Assembly (NCBI GenBank): GCA_039801085.1
Contig: JBDRTY010000002.1
Span: 443,339-507,338 of the forward strand
DNA: 64,000 nt
Reading direction: 5' to 3'
DNA from: a candidate division WOR-3 bacterium
GTDB lineage: Bacteria > Hydrothermota > Tepidihabitantia > Tepidihabitantales > Tepidihabitantaceae
Shown: piece by piece, positions 12,505 to 23,655 of the stretch
Layout of the letters: each line of letters begins with the position of its first letter
How positions within the stretch are numbered: the stretch's first letter is position 1
The notes under the pieces: generated by a model
What the model saw: only the letters and a program-made list of their open reading frames with translations
Database searches by the model: none
What the model was told of the DNA's origin: nothing
Position numbers and translations under genes: made by a program

Positions 12505-12786
12505 TCAGTGCCGGAGGAGGATCAGCAGGACTACCGCAGCTGTTCCTAAAAAGAGCACTACGCCGATGCTGATCCAGAGGAAACTTTGACTGCGGATCTC
12601 CTCATACCGCTCCTCAACCTCAGCCATTTTGTCCGGGTCCTGAGGCGGCTTGAGCTTGTCCTCAACGATTTCGCCGGTAAACTGCAGCCCGCAGGCAGGA
12701 CAGGATTTGTGTGGCCGGGTCATCAGCTTGCCGCATTCCGGACAGAAGTAGTGCTTGCCCCGTTTGATCAGTGGTGTCTGCGCCAC
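12505..12786 (-). CDS. Zinc-ribbon membrane protein, 93 residues
   Basis: N-terminal zinc ribbon with two CxxC knuckles (CPECGK and CPACGL, residues 15-35), a charged linker with a short acidic helix (DKMAEVEERYEEIRSQ), and one C-terminal transmembrane segment (FLWISIGVVLFLGTAAVVLL). Function unknown; the layout suggests a membrane-anchored protein with its ribbon in the cytoplasm. Starts at GTG, 5 nt after the -10 box of a near-perfect promoter whose -35 lies inside the left copy of the island direct repeat. Confidence 0.75.
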   Translation of the reverse strand: MAQTPLIKRGKHYFCPECGKLMTRPHKSCPACGLQFTGEIVEDKLKPPQDPDKMAEVEERYEEIRSQSFLWISIGVVLFLGTAAVVLLILLRH

Positions 12787-12791
12787 ATCTT

Positions 12792-12820
12792 AAAATAGAG
12801 ATATCAAGGCTGGCTGTCAA
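12792..12820 (-). promoter_or_regulatory. Promoter of the zinc-ribbon gene
   Basis: Minus strand TTGACA (12820-12815), 17-bp spacer, TATTTT (12797-12792), 5 nt to the GTG at 12786. The -35 and most of the spacer belong to the 78-bp repeat that also occurs at 19762-19839. Confidence 0.7.
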
Positions 12821-12878
12821 GAAATATCCACCGGTTTTGAGGTAAAACCGGGATTTTCTGGCTGCTGTTTTCACTTGA
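12801..12878. repeat. Left copy of 78-bp direct repeat bounding the island
   Basis: Matches 19762-19839 over 78 bp with 5 mismatches and no gaps. It contains a perfect 8-bp stem hairpin (CCGGTTTT, 5-nt loop, AAAACCGG, about 12831-12851) and a minus-strand TTGACA. Between the two copies lies the AT-richer island. No integrase, transposase or tRNA gene adjoins either copy, so the mechanism is open. Confidence 0.85.
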
Positions 12879-13205
12879 ATGGGGCAGCCTTTTTAAAACT
12901 TTTTCCTTAATCTATAACTTGGTCTCGGCTGGCAAAAGAAATAATGTTGAAAGTATCATTGCGAGTACTTCATCACCGCCATTTTACCAGTGGTGAAGGA
13001 ATCTCTACTTTTTCAAGCCTCAAGTCTTATCAAGCCAAGCGCAGCCGGTGAATATCTTGTAACACAGCTTAGATTTGAACCCATTCCGGTATAAAACGGT
13101 AGCATCTTCAATTATACAATCTCTTGCTAAAAAATTTTACTTGACAAGAGAGAGTATAATTGAGTCGCAGTCAGATTATAAACCCTGACTGTGAAAGGGG
13201 AAATT
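12879..13205 (+). other. AT-rich leader region of the island, no gene
   Basis: Clearly richer in A and T than the flanks. It contains a diverged string (CATTGCGAG at about 12959 to GAAGGAATCTC near 13005) recalling the inverted intergenic repeats elsewhere. Ahead of the first small gene lie TTGACA (13141-13146) and TATAAT (13155-13160), but only 8 bp apart, too close for one promoter, so the true -35 for TATAAT is unclear. AAAGGGG (13193-13199) is a ribosome site for the ATG at 13206. Confidence 0.45.
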
Positions 13206-13379
13206 ATGATTAATGTCCTGCAGTGGGGAGTCACCCCAGAATCAGGTGGAACAGATGGTACCGGGAAAAAATACTGCTGCGGATGGCTGTGCGAGTGTAG
13301 TGGTTCTTCACAAGAAGCAGCAAATGACTTAACTCGGATTTCGTTAACAGTTCCCGGAGATCAGGCGGCATTACCGTAA
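13206..13379 (+). CDS. Candidate Cys-rich RiPP precursor peptide
   Basis: 57-residue peptide starting at an ATG with AAAGGGG 6 nt upstream. Its middle holds a dense cysteine patch, KKYCCGWLCECSGSS (about residues 21-35), after a Gly/Thr-rich leader and before a Leu-containing tail. A short Cys-rich peptide directly ahead of a SPASM radical SAM protein and an exporter is the usual layout of thioether RiPP loci. The peptide resembles no precursor family I know; its C-terminal 17 codons overlap the maturase frame. It could instead be the remnant of a longer gene. Confidence 0.4.
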   Translation: MINVLQWGVTPESGGTDGTGKKYCCGWLCECSGSSQEAANDLTRISLTVPGDQAALP

Positions 13380-14887
13380 TCAGCAGAAATCAGGCGATAA
13401 GTGGTGGATGGATTCTCCATTTATTCACAAGTTCATTAGTCTTTCAGAGAGGCGATATATATGATGTAAATACAAATTGTTTCGTAGAAGTGGATGCGGT
13501 TGTTTGGGATATAATAGATGACATTGGTGTATTACACGATTCTGATATAATCAGCAAGTGGTTAGCAAAACACGGGGCAGATGACATCACAGAGGCTATA
13601 CAGGCTGTTCATACGCAACAAAAAGAAGGTCTGTTTTTGTCGCATCGTCCAAAACGCATGCTTGGTTATGAGGACCCTGATTCTCTTTTAAGTACCTACA
13701 GGGCAGGTCCGGAGCAGATCATTCTCGAGGTTACAGCTCAGTGTAATTTGAGGGGTCTCTATTGCATCTTTTCTGGACAATACTATTATGAAAGAACCCA
13801 TTTTTCATGTTCAATGAGCAAAACGGTTATGAGACAATCGCTCGCTTATGCACGTTCCTGCGCACTCGCCATTGACGGGGAACAAGAAAGAGGCGTATCC
13901 TTCTATGGTGGTGAGCCTCTTCTTCGTTATGAAGTAATTAGGGAATTAATATCTGAGTTTAATTGCGATAGAGATGTCCGATGGATTTTTAGGATTGTAA
14001 CAAATGGGACTCTTATTAATGAGGAGATGGCCAAGTTCTTTGCAGAAAATGGAGTTTTCCTCCAGGTCAGCCTTGACGGACCCCGGCACATTCACGACAG
14101 GTATAGGGTATTTCCCAATGGTTCCCCCACATTTGATAGAATACTCAAAAACCTAGCGATGCTGCGCAAACTGGCACCCACTTACTATGACACACATGTT
14201 GTCTTTGCAGTAACGATAGGACCGGGTTCTGATTTGCATGCGATCGACGATTTCTTTAAAAGCGAGCCGCTTGTGGAGAATCATCCGCTAACCATTACTT
14301 TTCTTTCCAGTTATGACACAAACCTGTTCACCCGTATCGGTAATTACACACCCGCACAGGTGAAGCAGCGCGAGCAGCTCAAGCTGGACTACATTTCACG
14401 CTTAGCCAGAAATGAAATTCCTACCCAAGTCCAGTCTGCTTTTTTTGCTAAGTCCTTGAGACGGATACATAGACGGACCGCTGTAAGACTGGGAGAATTT
14501 ATACCCGCGAACGGGACTTGTTATCCTGGCATAACCAGAGTTTTTGTCAATGTAAATGGGGAACTCACACCATGCGAGAAGGTTGGCAGTGCTGCTTGCT
14601 TCAGGCTGGGAAAGGTTGAAACCGGCATTGATATAAAAGCGGCAAAAGGATTAATAGACCGGTATGTTGAGGTGTCTGAGAAGAAGTGTATAAAATGCTG
14701 GACGCAGCGGCTGTGCGACTTGTGTTTTAATTCCGGTAGAAAAGGGGATTCGTTATCCCTACATCGGAAAAGAGAAGAGTGTGCCAGGGCGCTTACGCGG
14801 TTTCACGAGGAACTCGTGATGTATGCCTCAATTATGGAGAAAAATCCGAGGGCGTTTGACGCTTTGATTCCTTATCCGAAACAGTGA
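13370..14887 (+). CDS. Radical SAM/SPASM peptide maturase, probably inactive
   Basis: About 500 residues. The N-terminal part (ILHLFTSSLVFQRGDIYDVN then CFVEVDAVVWDI) looks like the peptide-recognition region of Cys-rich-peptide maturases, a radical SAM domain follows, then a SPASM domain with PCEKVG and CIKCWTQRLCDLC. The [4Fe-4S] motif reads CNLRGLYC: the middle Cys of CxxxCxxC is Gly (GGT at 13754-13756, one base from TGT), which should abolish SAM cleavage. The homologous N-terminus extends upstream of the first GTG (13490), but no ATG/GTG/TTG exists there; ATT at 13370 is the best candidate. Both features suggest decay or a base-level error. Confidence 0.75.
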   Translation: MTVISRNQAISGGWILHLFTSSLVFQRGDIYDVNTNCFVEVDAVVWDIIDDIGVLHDSDIISKWLAKHGADDITEAIQAVHTQQKEGLFLSHRPKRMLGYEDPDSLLSTYRAGPEQIILEVTAQCNLRGLYCIFSGQYYYERTHFSCSMSKTVMRQSLAYARSCALAIDGEQERGVSFYGGEPLLRYEVIRELISEFNCDRDVRWIFRIVTNGTLINEEMAKFFAENGVFLQVSLDGPRHIHDRYRVFPNGSPTFDRILKNLAMLRKLAPTYYDTHVVFAVTIGPGSDLHAIDDFFKSEPLVENHPLTITFLSSYDTNLFTRIGNYTPAQVKQREQLKLDYISRLARNEIPTQVQSAFFAKSLRRIHRRTAVRLGEFIPANGTCYPGITRVFVNVNGELTPCEKVGSAACFRLGKVETGIDIKAAKGLIDRYVEVSEKKCIKCWTQRLCDLCFNSGRKGDSLSLHRKREECARALTRFHEELVMYASIMEKNPRAFDALIPYPKQ

Positions 14888-16644
14888 GTTGTTCTCAAGT
14901 TGAGGGTCGTGAAATAAAAATACATGCTTTACCGTTACGTCAGTTTATTTGTTTGTGGAGACCCCATCTTCGCTATGCCCTCGGGGCAGGTTTGACCAGC
15001 TTGTTTATTGCCCTTCTGGGTTTGCCCGGGCCGTTTCTTACCCGATTTGCAATTGATAAGGTCTTCCCGAACCGGAATATTCATCTTCTTACTCTTGTTG
15101 CAATTGGTTTATTGTTTCTTTCAGCAACCACCGCACTCAGTAGCTATATTAGCAGTCTGCTTATGTTCATATTTCGTTCCAAAGTCACAGTTCATATTCA
15201 GCAGAGGTTATTTGAACACATAGAACACTTAAATATGATATTTCATGATCGCACGAAAACGGGTGAATCAGTTTCAATTCTGACCGGTGACGTTTCCAAT
15301 CTGCAAGGGTTGATGGCAGATACCCTGGTTGCGTTTTCGCGGAATTTAGTTACCTTTATCATAGGAGTGATTACGCTTTGTTCACTTAACTGGAGGCTTG
15401 CACTCCTTGCCTTGGGAATCATGCCGCTATTTATCTACTCAACTTATGTGTTCTCCGGCCAAATTCGTAAGAAATCGGGGGCGGTTCAGAAGAATTTTGC
15501 TTGCCTCCTGAGTTTCTTATTCGGGTGGCTTTCAGCAATTTCGTTAATCAAGACGTTCTGGCTGGAAAAAGAAATTGCCATAAGGTTACGCAACCGACTT
15601 GAAGAATCATTTGCCATTAACCTCAGCTTCACTAAAACATTTCTCCTTTCAGGTTCTATCGCTATGTTCATCGGTAGTTTGGGAGCTATACTAATCCTGT
15701 GGTATGGAGGGCAGGAAATAATGAAGGGACGTCTTACCTTGGGTAGTTTTGTGGCATTTAATGCTATTTTGAACTATCTGTACACTCCGATTCAGGTTTT
15801 CATGGGTTTGAATTCCTCCATCCAGAAAGCCTTTGCTTCGCTGGAGAGAGTTTTTACTATCTATAATATTCCAGCAGAAAACGGCGACGCAAATATGCCC
15901 GTTCCTGCTGATAAAAGAATGGATATCTCTTTTGATAACGTAGTTTTTGGTTTTTTGGGTAAAAAACCGGTATTGCATAACATGTCATTTGAAATCAAAT
16001 ATGGGGAGAAAGTGGCGATCGTAAGCAGGTCGGGCAGTGGGAAGACAACTCTGGTCAAACTGCTGCTTAAGTTTTACACCCCTGAAAAAGGAAGGATAGG
16101 TATTGCGGGTATAGATATCAGGTCCATAAGAACTTCGGATCTGCGAAAGAAAATAGGGGTTGTCCACCAGAATGAGTATGTGCTTCCAGGAACAATGCGG
16201 GATAATGTCCGAATCGGTAAGCCCGACGCTTCAGATGATGAGCTTTTTCAAGCGCTCAGACATACCAATCTGTATGATTTCATAGTTGGTTTGCCTGCAG
16301 GGCTTGATACAGAAATTGGGGAGCGCGGAGTGGGGCTCTCTGACGGTGAGGTTCAGAGGTTGGCAATAAGCCGGGTAATTCTCAGGGATCCAGATATACT
16401 GATATTTGATGAGGCATTCTCAGAAATTGACCCACAGTCAGAATCTTTAATCCGGGAAGCTATATTCCAACTCTTCAGGGACAGGACAGTAATTTTCATC
16501 ACACACCGACTTTCTGATGTCGCCTGGGCGGAGCGCGTTATTTTCATTGATGCCGGAAGGTTTATTGGAACGGCTCCACATAATGAACTTCTGGCAACTC
16601 TTCATGACTATCGGGAATTCTGGGAAGCTAACAATGCGGGGTAA
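14884..16644 (+). CDS. ABC exporter, fused membrane and ATPase domains
   Basis: 586 residues: six transmembrane segments in the first 310 residues, then an ATPase domain with Walker A (VSRSGSGKTT), Walker B with the catalytic Glu (ILIFDEAFSEID) and H-loop (THRLSD). The signature is LSDGE, not LSGGQ. There is no N-terminal C39 peptidase, so leader removal would need another protease. GTG start overlaps the maturase stop (GTGA), so the two are coupled. Likely exports the island's peptide. AT-richer codon use than the exporters at 33101-36635. Confidence 0.85.
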   Translation: MSCSQVEGREIKIHALPLRQFICLWRPHLRYALGAGLTSLFIALLGLPGPFLTRFAIDKVFPNRNIHLLTLVAIGLLFLSATTALSSYISSLLMFIFRSKVTVHIQQRLFEHIEHLNMIFHDRTKTGESVSILTGDVSNLQGLMADTLVAFSRNLVTFIIGVITLCSLNWRLALLALGIMPLFIYSTYVFSGQIRKKSGAVQKNFACLLSFLFGWLSAISLIKTFWLEKEIAIRLRNRLEESFAINLSFTKTFLLSGSIAMFIGSLGAILILWYGGQEIMKGRLTLGSFVAFNAILNYLYTPIQVFMGLNSSIQKAFASLERVFTIYNIPAENGDANMPVPADKRMDISFDNVVFGFLGKKPVLHNMSFEIKYGEKVAIVSRSGSGKTTLVKLLLKFYTPEKGRIGIAGIDIRSIRTSDLRKKIGVVHQNEYVLPGTMRDNVRIGKPDASDDELFQALRHTNLYDFIVGLPAGLDTEIGERGVGLSDGEVQRLAISRVILRDPDILIFDEAFSEIDPQSESLIREAIFQLFRDRTVIFITHRLSDVAWAERVIFIDAGRFIGTAPHNELLATLHDYREFWEANNAG

Positions 16645-16646
16645 AT

Positions 16647-17114
16647 TTGTATAAAAGTTTCGCCATCTGCAATGCCATCGTCGGGTTGATGGGCATCGGT
16701 TTCTCGTTTCTCCAGAGACGCCACAACCGACTGATCTTCTGGTTGATGCTGGGCTCGGGGATTTCCTTAATTATCCCGCTTATTCATTTTCTGATTGGGT
16801 GTTGGCTGTATGACATCGGGTCTCCGATATGGAAGAGATGGGCGATGGATGGAACAGCCATTATTACTAATTTCTTTAAATATACTGGTTACTTTTTTAT
16901 CCAGTACATTTTGCTTGTTGGCGGTATGCTGGATTTGGTTTTAAAGAAACGGGCTGCGGAGAGGGAAAGGGAGTTTAGTATGTTTATGGAGCGGATAACC
17001 CGGGCCCGATTCCGGGACAGAGGTGCTCTTGACACACCTCCCCAGAGTTTTGATATCGGGGATAGAAAGGAACCGATACGGTATGATAAGGATGGGAGCG
17101 AAAATGGGGAATAG
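16647..17114 (+). CDS. Small membrane protein of the island, 155 residues
   Basis: Three hydrophobic segments (near residues 7-22, 30-55 and 78-97) followed by a charged cytoplasmic tail rich in Arg and Glu (LKKRAAEREREFSMFMERIT). No family recognised. TTG start lies 2 bp after the exporter stop, and its end overlaps the receptor gene by 11 bp, so it belongs to the same transcription unit. It may be an exporter accessory or immunity protein, which is only inferred from position. Confidence 0.6.
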   Translation: MYKSFAICNAIVGLMGIGFSFLQRRHNRLIFWLMLGSGISLIIPLIHFLIGCWLYDIGSPIWKRWAMDGTAIITNFFKYTGYFFIQYILLVGGMLDLVLKKRAAEREREFSMFMERITRARFRDRGALDTPPQSFDIGDRKEPIRYDKDGSENGE

Positions 17115-19502
17115 TGTTATTGTTTTCTTGGGTGTTATCGCGCTGCTGATTAGCGGCAGTTCTGTCCAGTCTGAAGTGCGGGGTTCGATCACCGGTAGTG
17201 TTTATGATATGGATCTGAAGGTGCCGATTGAGTATGCAACGGTAATACTTTACCAGCTGCCCGACAGTTCCCAGGTTACGGGGACAATAACAGGAAAGGA
17301 TGGGCGATTTATCATAACTGGAGTTAGGCCCGGAGAATACTACTTAGAGGTTTCATTCATCGGTTATCAGGTAAAAAGGCTTGAAAATATTCAGGTTGCG
17401 TCCAACGGAAGAGTTAATCTTGGCGACATTTACATCCGCCAGACCGCAGTACCGGTTGAAGAGGTTAGGATATTCGGAACCCGCCCGAAACTGACTTATC
17501 AGATCGACAGAAAGGTATTAAATGTTGCCCAGAGAGGTATTCCGCCGACAGGAACGGCGGTTGATGTTTTGAAGGATGCGCCGTCAGTAAAGGTTGATGC
17601 GGAGCGTAATATAACCTTGCGGGGAAGCAGTAATTTTACTGTCCTGATTGACAGTCGTCCAACGCTCCTTGAACCCAAGGAGGCGCTGGAACAGATTCCG
17701 GCGGTAAACATAGACCGGATTGAGATTATAACCAACCCGTCAGCAAAATATGAGGCAGAAGGAGTAACAGGGATAATCAATGTAATATTAAAGAAGCAGC
17801 GGCAACCGGGTTCAAGTGGACTCATTAATGCGAGTGGTGGACTTCCAGCAAGTTATAATGGGACCCTCTATCTGAATTACCGGCAGGGGATTTTTAGCGG
17901 TTACCTTGGTGCGAGGGCGGGTAGGACCCGGTTGACTCGGCGAGATGTGGAGCAGCGTGAGATTTACTCCGGTGATACGACATTTTACTTTGTCTCCAAA
18001 TCGCTTTTCCCCCGGGTTTTCTTTTTGTTAGGGGTCAATGGCGGTTTTTCTATGGAGTTTTCTCCACGAGACAAAACCAGTTTTGATGTCGGTATCGGCA
18101 GAATGGATACGGAAGGCAGGTGGGACACCGAAGTTTCGGAGTGGTCGAGCCTTAGCCCTGATACTGGTTATTATAACAGTGCGCGAAGACTCAGGCGCCC
18201 CGGACCGTATCATCTCTTCGGTTTTGAACAGGAGCACCGATTGGGCAAGCCTGGGCATAAGGTTCTCCTGCGAGCCGATTACTGTCGACGGTATGATGAT
18301 TATCTTTCCCGAACCGAGCGGCTTGACTCCAATAATCGTCGCACCAGCGGCTGGCAGGCAAGCCAGACCGGCAGGTTGAGCCTCACAAGAGTCCAGGTCG
18401 ACTATACACTTCCTTTTACCGAACAGAATCAGTTGGAGGCAGGATTGGGCAGCCGATTTGATGACGCCTTGAATGGCGATACCGTATCAGTTCTTGATAC
18501 TGCCACTGGTGAATATGAAATATTATCCCAATTCAGCCGTCAGAGTCATTATAACCTTAACACCAACTGGGCATACAGCACGTTTTCCGGAACCTGGGGT
18601 AATTTTGGCACCAAAATCGGGTTGCGAACGGAATTCTGGCTACAGACAGTTGCTGTTGCTGACAATGATACTTATCGGCTGAAAAGGCTTGACTTTTTCC
18701 CGACCCTGCATCTTTCCTATCAATTACCAAGGGGACAGCAGATGATGGCGAGTTATGCGCGCCGGATTAACCGACCGACTGCGCGCAACCTCCGGCCTTA
18801 TTTAATCTGGACGGACCCGAATACCAGGACTGAGGGAAACCCAGAACTGAAACCGGAGTTTGTCCACTCGTTTGACTTCGGCTACCTGTTGCCGATTGGC
18901 GGAAACCGGCTGTCTGCCGAGATTTATTATCGGATTACTCAGAACGCAATTGACCATATCCGTTCGGTTGATTCAGAAAATATAATAGTAAGTATCCCCC
19001 GGAATGTTGGCAGCTCCAGCGCGCTGGGGGGTGAATTCACATTTGACTTTAGCCCGCTCAGATGGTGGACGGTGAGCCTCACCGGCGAAATATATGACTA
19101 TCAGATAAAGCGGGGTGATTTCCCAAAAAGGGGTTTTATCTGGAGCGGTTCTATAGACAATCAGTTTCAACTGCCAACAAATACCCAGGGCCGGTTTCTT
19201 GTGTCTTACGATAGCCCGAAGGTTGATGCTCAGGGAACATAGGCTCTTTCTATAACACAAGTTTGACATTTAGCCATCAGTTTCTAAAAAGACGGTTGAA
19301 CCTGTTTCTTACCATATCCGACCCGCTACCACCAATCTGGTCAAGTTCATCTGAGGGCAAAGGTTTTAAACAGAGCGGATGGAGCTGGTTTGTGGGGTTT
19401 CGTGCCACTATCGGCTTGACCTATAACTTCAACAACTACCGCTTCCAGCGCCGCCGTTCTTTAGAGATTGAGCAGGAGTTGCAGCGGGAGAATACGGATT
19501 GA
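17104..19502 (+). pseudogene. TonB-receptor-like outer-membrane beta-barrel protein, frameshifted
   Basis: From the ATG at 17104 (GGGAG upstream): signal peptide (IVFLGVIALLISGSSVQS), carboxypeptidase-regulatory-like domain (GSITGSVYDMDLKVPIEYAT), plug (VDVLKDAPSVKVD, IEIITNPSAKYEAEG) and a barrel of the type common in Bacteroidetes next to RiPP loci. The frame stops at TAG 19240-19242, just after SYDSPKVDAQGT. The missing last strands continue in another frame (SFYNTSLTFSHQFLKRRLN) to 19502. A small indel near 19235-19250 therefore separates the final barrel strands. The product would be unable to complete its C-terminal strand. Confidence 0.8.
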
Positions 19503-19761
19503 ATTTGGATCGCAGCCCAAGTTGCGTCAATCAAATCCATCACCGGTGGTAATCTGTCTCTTGGGGGTATAAAGCACTGCTCACCGGAAAAATTATAAAC
19601 GCGCTGGCGAAATGTGCCGAGCATTCCGGTGGTGATCAGGGGGTGTGTTGGATCAACCCCCGGCTCATGAACTTAATTAGCATCAGAAGGTCAGGTATTG
19701 TGTGTCGGCTGCAGAGTCCGGGAATGAATGAGCAGTTCGATTGCTGTGCTGATTCATAGGA
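19503..19761. other. Non-coding stretch at the right end of the island
   Basis: About 260 bp with no credible gene, RNA or strong hairpin. It separates the broken receptor gene from the right repeat copy. Confidence 0.4.
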
Positions 19762-19839
19762 ATATCAAGGCTGGCTGTCAAGAAATACGCGCCGGTTTTG
19801 AGGGAAAACCGGGATTTTCTGGCTGCTGTTTTCGCTTGA
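19762..19839. repeat. Right copy of 78-bp direct repeat bounding the island
   Basis: Same orientation as 12801-12878, 73 of 78 bases identical. It keeps the CCGGTTTT/AAAACCGG hairpin, with one loop base changed (GAGGT to GAGGG), and the minus-strand TTGACA. Here the plus strand ends in CGCTTGACA, which could serve the SWIB-like gene downstream. Confidence 0.85.
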
Positions 19840-19942: not shown

Positions 19943-20224
19943 ATGCCGCGTGGACAAGCATTGATGAACCGCACCGTGAAGCTGACGGAGGCGATGCAGC
20001 CGGTCTTCGGTCCGGGGAAGACGATCAAGGTCCGGGATATCAACAAGAAGCTCTGGGCTTACATTAAGAAGCATAAGCTGATGACCGGCGAGGGACCGCT
20101 GATGAAGCGGAGCGTCAAGCTGACTCCGGAGCTGCAGGCGATCATGGGCAAGAAAGCCTCGGTCAAGGTCGGTGAAATGATGAAACTTCTCTGGAAATAC
20201 ATTAACGCCAATAATCTGTTCTAG
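19943..20224 (+). CDS. SWIB-like small basic protein
   Basis: 93 residues made of two similar halves. Each has VKLT, a short Gly-containing turn (FGPGKTIKV or GKKASVKV) and an aromatic helix (KKLWAYIKKHKLM or MKLLWKYINANNLF). This helix pattern is that of the SWIB/MDM2 fold, which is known in chlamydial and a few other bacterial small proteins. A normal SWIB domain is about 70 residues, so the two halves may together form one domain or an internal duplication. Very Lys-rich, so DNA or RNA binding is plausible. The ATG follows AAAGGAG by 5 nt. Confidence 0.6.
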   Translation: MPRGQALMNRTVKLTEAMQPVFGPGKTIKVRDINKKLWAYIKKHKLMTGEGPLMKRSVKLTPELQAIMGKKASVKVGEMMKLLWKYINANNLF

Positions 20225-20470: not shown

Positions 20471-23485
<3,015 letters not shown>

Positions 23486-23524
23486 TCAGTCTGCTTCTTC
23501 TCCTTAAATCTGGTCTGTAAGATT

Positions 23525-23640
23525 CCCGGCGGTGATACCGGAGGGGAAACACCTCTTCCCATACCGAACAGAGCCGTTAAGCCCTCCAGGGCCGATGGTA
23601 CTGCGCTGGCAACGGCGTGGGAGAGTAGGTCGCTGCCGGG
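23525..23640 (+). rRNA. 5S ribosomal RNA
   Basis: About 116 nt. The closing helix is CCCGGC (23525-23530) with GCCGGG (23635-23640). It contains the conserved CATACCGAACAGAG-like loop and GGTACTGC...GGGAGAGTAGGTCGC. It lies 39 bp after the 23S end and is followed by a T-rich run (TTTTTCTTTTT) that may end transcription. Confidence 0.95.
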
Positions 23641-23655
23641 TTTTTCTTTTTCTGT

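Follow-up and report, generated by a model that had tools for sequence, protein, structure and literature searches.

A predicted Cys-rich radical SAM peptide cassette, most likely non-functional, inserted in a zinc-ribbon/SWIB intergenic region of a WOR-3 bacterium

The closest described relatives of the locus presented here come from several families of radical SAM peptide systems. The maturase CcpM (TIGR04068) and the RumMC sactipeptide maturase (NF035951) are both preceded by a small Cys-rich precursor gene, directly upstream. The ranthipeptide (SCIFF) maturase CteB belongs to a system that is not known to include a receptor. In Bacteroides thetaiotaomicron, the itf cluster (ItfA–ItfF) brings together a SPASM-type radical SAM protein, an ABC transporter, a TonB-dependent transporter and a short precursor (PMC11002830). 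Pseudo-radical SAM proteins have moreover been reported in RiPP clusters of Bacteroidales, where they are described as partners of an active radical SAM enzyme (PMC10352776).

The present locus was found in a window of 64,000 nucleotides, the whole stretch of DNA analysed, from the genome of an uncultured WOR-3 bacterium (1.91 Mb in 7 contigs). Between 12.88 and 19.76 kb, five genes encode, in this order, a Cys-rich precursor, a SPASM radical SAM maturase, an ABC exporter, a small membrane protein and a PF14905 TonB-type receptor (Table 1). Pfam and NCBIfam matches agree with the initial annotation on the nature of these products, the small protein being without a family. All five genes lie on the plus strand, some of them overlapping, as had been stated, but the gaps extend from 2 to 28 bp instead of 2 to 11 bp.

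Table 1. Features of the island and of its immediate neighbours (positions in the window)
Feature	Position	Strand	Observation
Zinc-ribbon membrane protein gene, left neighbour	12505..12786	-	50-55% identical in G003, G009 and G013, adjoining SWIB there
Left direct repeat, 84 bp	12795..12878	.	Zinc-ribbon/SWIB intergenic region; contains the zinc-ribbon promoter
Predicted Cys-rich RiPP precursor, 57 aa, frame intact	13206..13379	+	MINVLQWG...YCCGWLCEC...VPGD...; G005 counterpart, tblastn E 8e-8
Actual start of the maturase gene, ATG reading MDSPFIHKFISLSERRYI; frame differs from that of the main part	13408..13463	+	Aligned with the N-termini of G061, G005 and G033
CcpM-like SPASM radical SAM maturase, main part	13460..14887	+	CxxxGxxC for CxxxCxxC; profile match and alignment
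ABC exporter, no C39 peptidase domain	14884..16644	+	PF00664 + PF00005; Walker A glycine to serine
Small membrane protein, 155 aa, no known family	16647..17114	+	Only with these cassettes and in G014
PF14905 TonB-type receptor, shortened by frameshift	17092..19242	+	PF14905 (OMP_b-brl_3), E 3e-68
Receptor C-terminus, other frame	19263..19502	+	Last 30 residues 60% identical to the G003 remnant, 39% to G005
Right direct repeat, 84 bp	19756..19839	.	Extends into the SWIB promoter, to its -35 box
SWIB-domain gene, right neighbour	19943..20224	+	23S rRNA next

CcpM and RumMC are the best NCBIfam matches of the maturase, near full length (272 and 207 bits), but both curated cut-offs are missed by a wide margin. 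The TIGR04068 score amounts to 272.3 bits, and to 265.8 bits for the homologue in UBA2258 (G005, another genus of the same family), for a cut-off of 500, and the enzyme is therefore not a strict CcpM. Further differences from these two maturases are the lack of one cluster Cys in the host (G000) copy and the Gram-negative type of the cassette, with its outer-membrane receptor. CteB provides the closest solved structure (PDB 5wgg, E 1.5e-23), with a radical SAM core and a SPASM domain in common; the relationship is distant and the precursor is different. The itf cluster shares with the island its four types of components, but it also encodes a YcaO enzyme, its ABC transporter carries a C39 peptidase, and its precursor is of the Ile-Thr-Phe type; neither YcaO nor C39-peptidase Pfam domains were detected in the island cassette proteins.

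A short precursor adjoining the maturase is conserved between the host and UBA2258 loci, as expected for a radical SAM-modified RiPP, the two peptides sharing an MI...WG start, a YCCGWxCEC motif and a VPGD tail. A scan for CCGWxCEC over about 85,000 species returned 60 DNA stretches and, among the short frames read, the sole other genuine precursor was that of UBA2258; a single-sequence pattern search of viral contigs with the precursor gave no match. More distant WOR-3 genomes (G061, G033, G067) encode peptides with MI/MF...W leaders followed by CxC repeats. UBA2258 contains uninterrupted counterparts of four of the five island genes in the same order, the exporter being absent. Its small membrane protein carries a fused GNAT acetyltransferase domain (PF00583; L023, 6713-7678).

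Among 147 genomes of the phylum, the two closest matches of the island exporter are ABC proteins encoded directly downstream of CcpM-like maturases, in G061 and G067. These belong to a set of loci (G061, G067, G068 and G079; L024, L025, L028 and L029) combining a CcpM-like radical SAM protein, an ABC exporter and a DUF5916 protein, a layout which is apparently undescribed in WOR-3. As in the island, the maturase is followed by an ABC exporter and then by a large presumed outer-membrane protein, and G061 and G067 share with it Cys-rich MI...W precursors as well as the closest exporters. In contrast to the island, the DUF5916 protein replaces both the PF14905 receptor and the small membrane protein, and the G061/G067-type core is rich in CxC repeats where the island has CCGWxCEC. 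Because a homologous cassette is syntenic in UBA2258, and because the closest relatives of the exporter adjoin CcpM-like maturases, the RiPP layout proposed initially is well supported.

The maturase matches the radical SAM domain PF04055 (E 1.5e-14), and its C-terminal cysteines (CYPG, CEK, CIKCWTQRLCDLC, EECA) align with those of homologues, in keeping with a SPASM domain. It is 52% identical to the UBA2258 protein, with which it is joined in the maturase tree with full SH-aLRT support, G061 and G033 coming next. A single-sequence pattern search of genome contigs with the maturase returned no match. The Gly noted earlier in the radical SAM motif is indeed present: the motif reads CNLRGLYC, with Gly at the second Cys of the CxxxCxxC that holds the SAM-binding 4Fe-4S cluster in active enzymes, and CxxxCxxC is found in all aligned homologues, including that of UBA2258. 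This Gly is unique among 17 aligned rows, and is one of only two departures of the host protein at the 24 columns that do not vary among the remaining 16 rows; the same UBA2258 protein accounts for two of these rows. The initial annotation also saw no start codon for this gene. A start does exist at ATG 13408: MDSPFIHKFISLSERRYI, read from there, corresponds to the N-terminal sequence that the family conserves (in G061, PFIHRFKSLSGKYYIYDV). The defect is in fact a frameshift, and the frame is lost at about 13455-13463, within a short AT tract.

Further lesions affect the transport proteins. The Walker A motif of the exporter is SRSGSGKT, whereas related exporters have G in first place; like the maturase Gly, this change falls at a position conserved in homologues. 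The exporter signature LSDGE was retained as a weak candidate lesion only, since related exporters have LSLGE and the position varies. The receptor had rightly been described as broken: its reading frame ends at a stop codon (19240-19242) and the C-terminus continues in another frame, where it is matched by a remnant in a sister-genus genome (G003). The plug and most of the barrel match PF14905 (1-344 of 408), with the C-terminal strands out of frame, while the UBA2258 receptor matches positions 1-408. The island receptor is 36-41% identical to ordinary PF14905 proteins of the family versus 33% to the receptor of the UBA2258 cassette. This, together with the maturase score below the TIGR04068 cut-off, counts against a CcpM-like cassette. 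TonB and other PF14905 proteins are present in the host and its relatives (one PF14905 protein of the congener G001 is 88% identical to one of the host), so that a TonB-driven receptor could have worked.

Traces of a similar system are found at a different site in the sister genus. G003 carries a frame-broken small membrane gene together with the last 30 receptor residues (L112, 10031-10547, C3), and G009 an even more eroded trace of the same remnant locus (L127, about 2200-2420, C1), in a region syntenic with 25.6-37.8 kb of the window. These eroded remnants indicate that decay of the system has affected more than one lineage and, together with the Walker A change, strengthen the earlier proposal of decay, which is supported. 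A cassette that still functions is very unlikely. It would require the maturase to be a cluster-independent pseudo-radical SAM protein and the frame breaks to be sequencing errors or programmed shifts; each frame is mostly open, that of the precursor is intact, and the pseudo-radical SAM proteins of Bacteroidales offer a precedent. These proteins however partner an active radical SAM enzyme (PMC10352776) and the island has only one maturase; besides, the Cys-to-Gly change co-occurs here with two frameshifts and the Walker A change, in a window whose other long frames look unbroken.

The direct repeats reported on both sides do bound the island, but they are 84 nt long rather than 78 bp, and 92% identical. 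A search of the whole host genome recovered only these two copies, both flanking the island, which rules out a chance, dispersed or regulatory repeat. The zinc-ribbon promoter (12820-12792, minus strand, TTGACA-17-TATTTT) is contained in the left copy, and the right copy reaches the TTGACA of the SWIB promoter at 19836. Each neighbour has its own copy and thus keeps its promoter. Comparison with close relatives, as had been advised, revealed the unoccupied site: in three sister-genus genomes (G003, G009, G013), the zinc-ribbon (minus) and SWIB (plus) genes are divergent, and the roughly 200-290 bp that separate them contain no island; EngA comes next past the zinc-ribbon gene, and the SWIB-23S region forms the other flank. 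The repeat corresponds to this gap, which is undivided in the three genomes, its sequence being too diverged for a base-by-base alignment. In the congener G002, the upstream regions of EngA and SWIB are about 130 bp apart, with neither island nor zinc-ribbon gene; neither island flank was found in the G001 assembly. In the host, the SWIB gene directly precedes 23S and 5S rRNA genes (20471-23641), with no 16S gene in the window, and SWIB is linked to 23S in G002, G003, G009 and G013 as well.

The repeats thus behave like a target duplication by insertion. Since sister genomes show the unoccupied site and the repeat occupies that gap, the island is most simply read as a derived insertion that duplicated a host intergenic region. 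An assembly chimera is unlikely, because the sequence at both junctions is the intergenic sequence of the host itself. Neither an integrase nor a transposase is encoded among the island genes, and no inverted repeats were detected at its ends, so that it does not have the features of an autonomous mobile element. Possible routes to the duplication are the repair of a staggered break and recombination with a circular donor. The latter, in which a second version of the intergenic region would have come with the donor and no target duplication would be involved, is possible but on balance doubtful. It would fit the 8% of positions that differ between the repeat copies and the absence of integrase, transposase and inverted ends, as well as the repeat length, 84 bp being far longer than usual transposon target duplications; the divergence could however simply reflect age, and a plasmid search with the maturase gave no match at E 1e-40.

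The island had been called AT-richer than its flanks, and this stands: its GC content is 0.41-0.50 and its GC3 0.43-0.55, compared with 0.55-0.65 and mostly 0.60-0.78 for most other genes of the window. Low GC does not by itself set the island apart, since the window contains two more AT-rich stretches with long open frames, at about 29.7-33.0 and 40.7-42.9 kb; as no flanking direct repeats were found around these stretches, they were rejected as similar islands. Between the left repeat and the precursor gene lies a single relic of a palindromic element, ATTGCGAG...AATCTC (12958-13005), which resembles dispersed repeats of other bacteria. A pattern close to it, CATTGCGAG-N(8-38)-GCAATCTC, had no exact match in the host genome and, among the loci compared, the relic is present at the island only; being suggestive only, it was not adopted as a marker of foreign DNA.

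A horizontally acquired, foreign origin, as first advanced, is only partly supported: the atypical composition, the derived insertion and the empty sites of relatives agree with an acquisition, but every close relative found is a WOR-3 bacterium, and the nearest maturase, precursor and small protein are all in the host's own family. A serious rival, although less likely than not, is that the cassette is old in this bacterial family and was relocated from a nearby ancestral site. The G003 remnant of the small membrane gene is indeed 74% identical to that of the island, close to the EngA divergence (72%), it lies in a region syntenic with the window, and the PF14905 proteins nearest to the island receptor are those of the family itself. 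Against such a long residence, the GC and GC3 of the island are far below those of the host, a comparable exporter was found in no other genome of the family, and the G003 and G009 remnants are at a different site.

Taken together, the island is real, well delimited and most likely non-functional, and it can be regarded with good confidence as a pseudogenised, CcpM-like (ranthipeptide/sactipeptide-type) RiPP cassette inserted in the zinc-ribbon/SWIB intergenic region and no longer working. In its working form, a precursor of 57-60 residues with a short MI....WG(G) leader would be bound by the N-terminal region of the maturase, and radical SAM chemistry would cross-link its CCGWxCEC core, Cys thioethers being the probable outcome. 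The peptide would then leave through the dedicated ABC exporter, and the TonB-type barrel and its small membrane partner may bring this modified product, or its cargo, back across the outer membrane. Entry of the cassette into the divergent intergenic region would have left each gene its own 84-bp copy and promoter. Function was presumably lost as the maturase lost a SAM-cluster ligand and its frame near the start, the ATP site of the exporter was damaged, and the receptor C-terminus fell out of frame. A more speculative and rather improbable extension would be a WOR-3 uptake loop for a secreted peptide: a WG(G)-leader CCGWxCEC thioether peptide exported by the ABC protein and recaptured, perhaps with metal, by the PF14905 receptor and its small partner, while the cassette would change sites without an integrase, duplicating about 84 bp as it moves, and would be lost repeatedly.

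The island is notable for its type of precursor, for an insertion that duplicated promoters and for a decay that sister lineages show in parallel. It gives a clear before-and-after view of an insertion that duplicated a divergent promoter region, with both flanking genes retaining their promoters, and shows related lineages in which a peptide system decays at different sites. It also draws attention to Cys-rich radical SAM peptides as a family in a phylum for which almost no RiPP literature was found in our search; the uninterrupted version in UBA2258 could be expressed.
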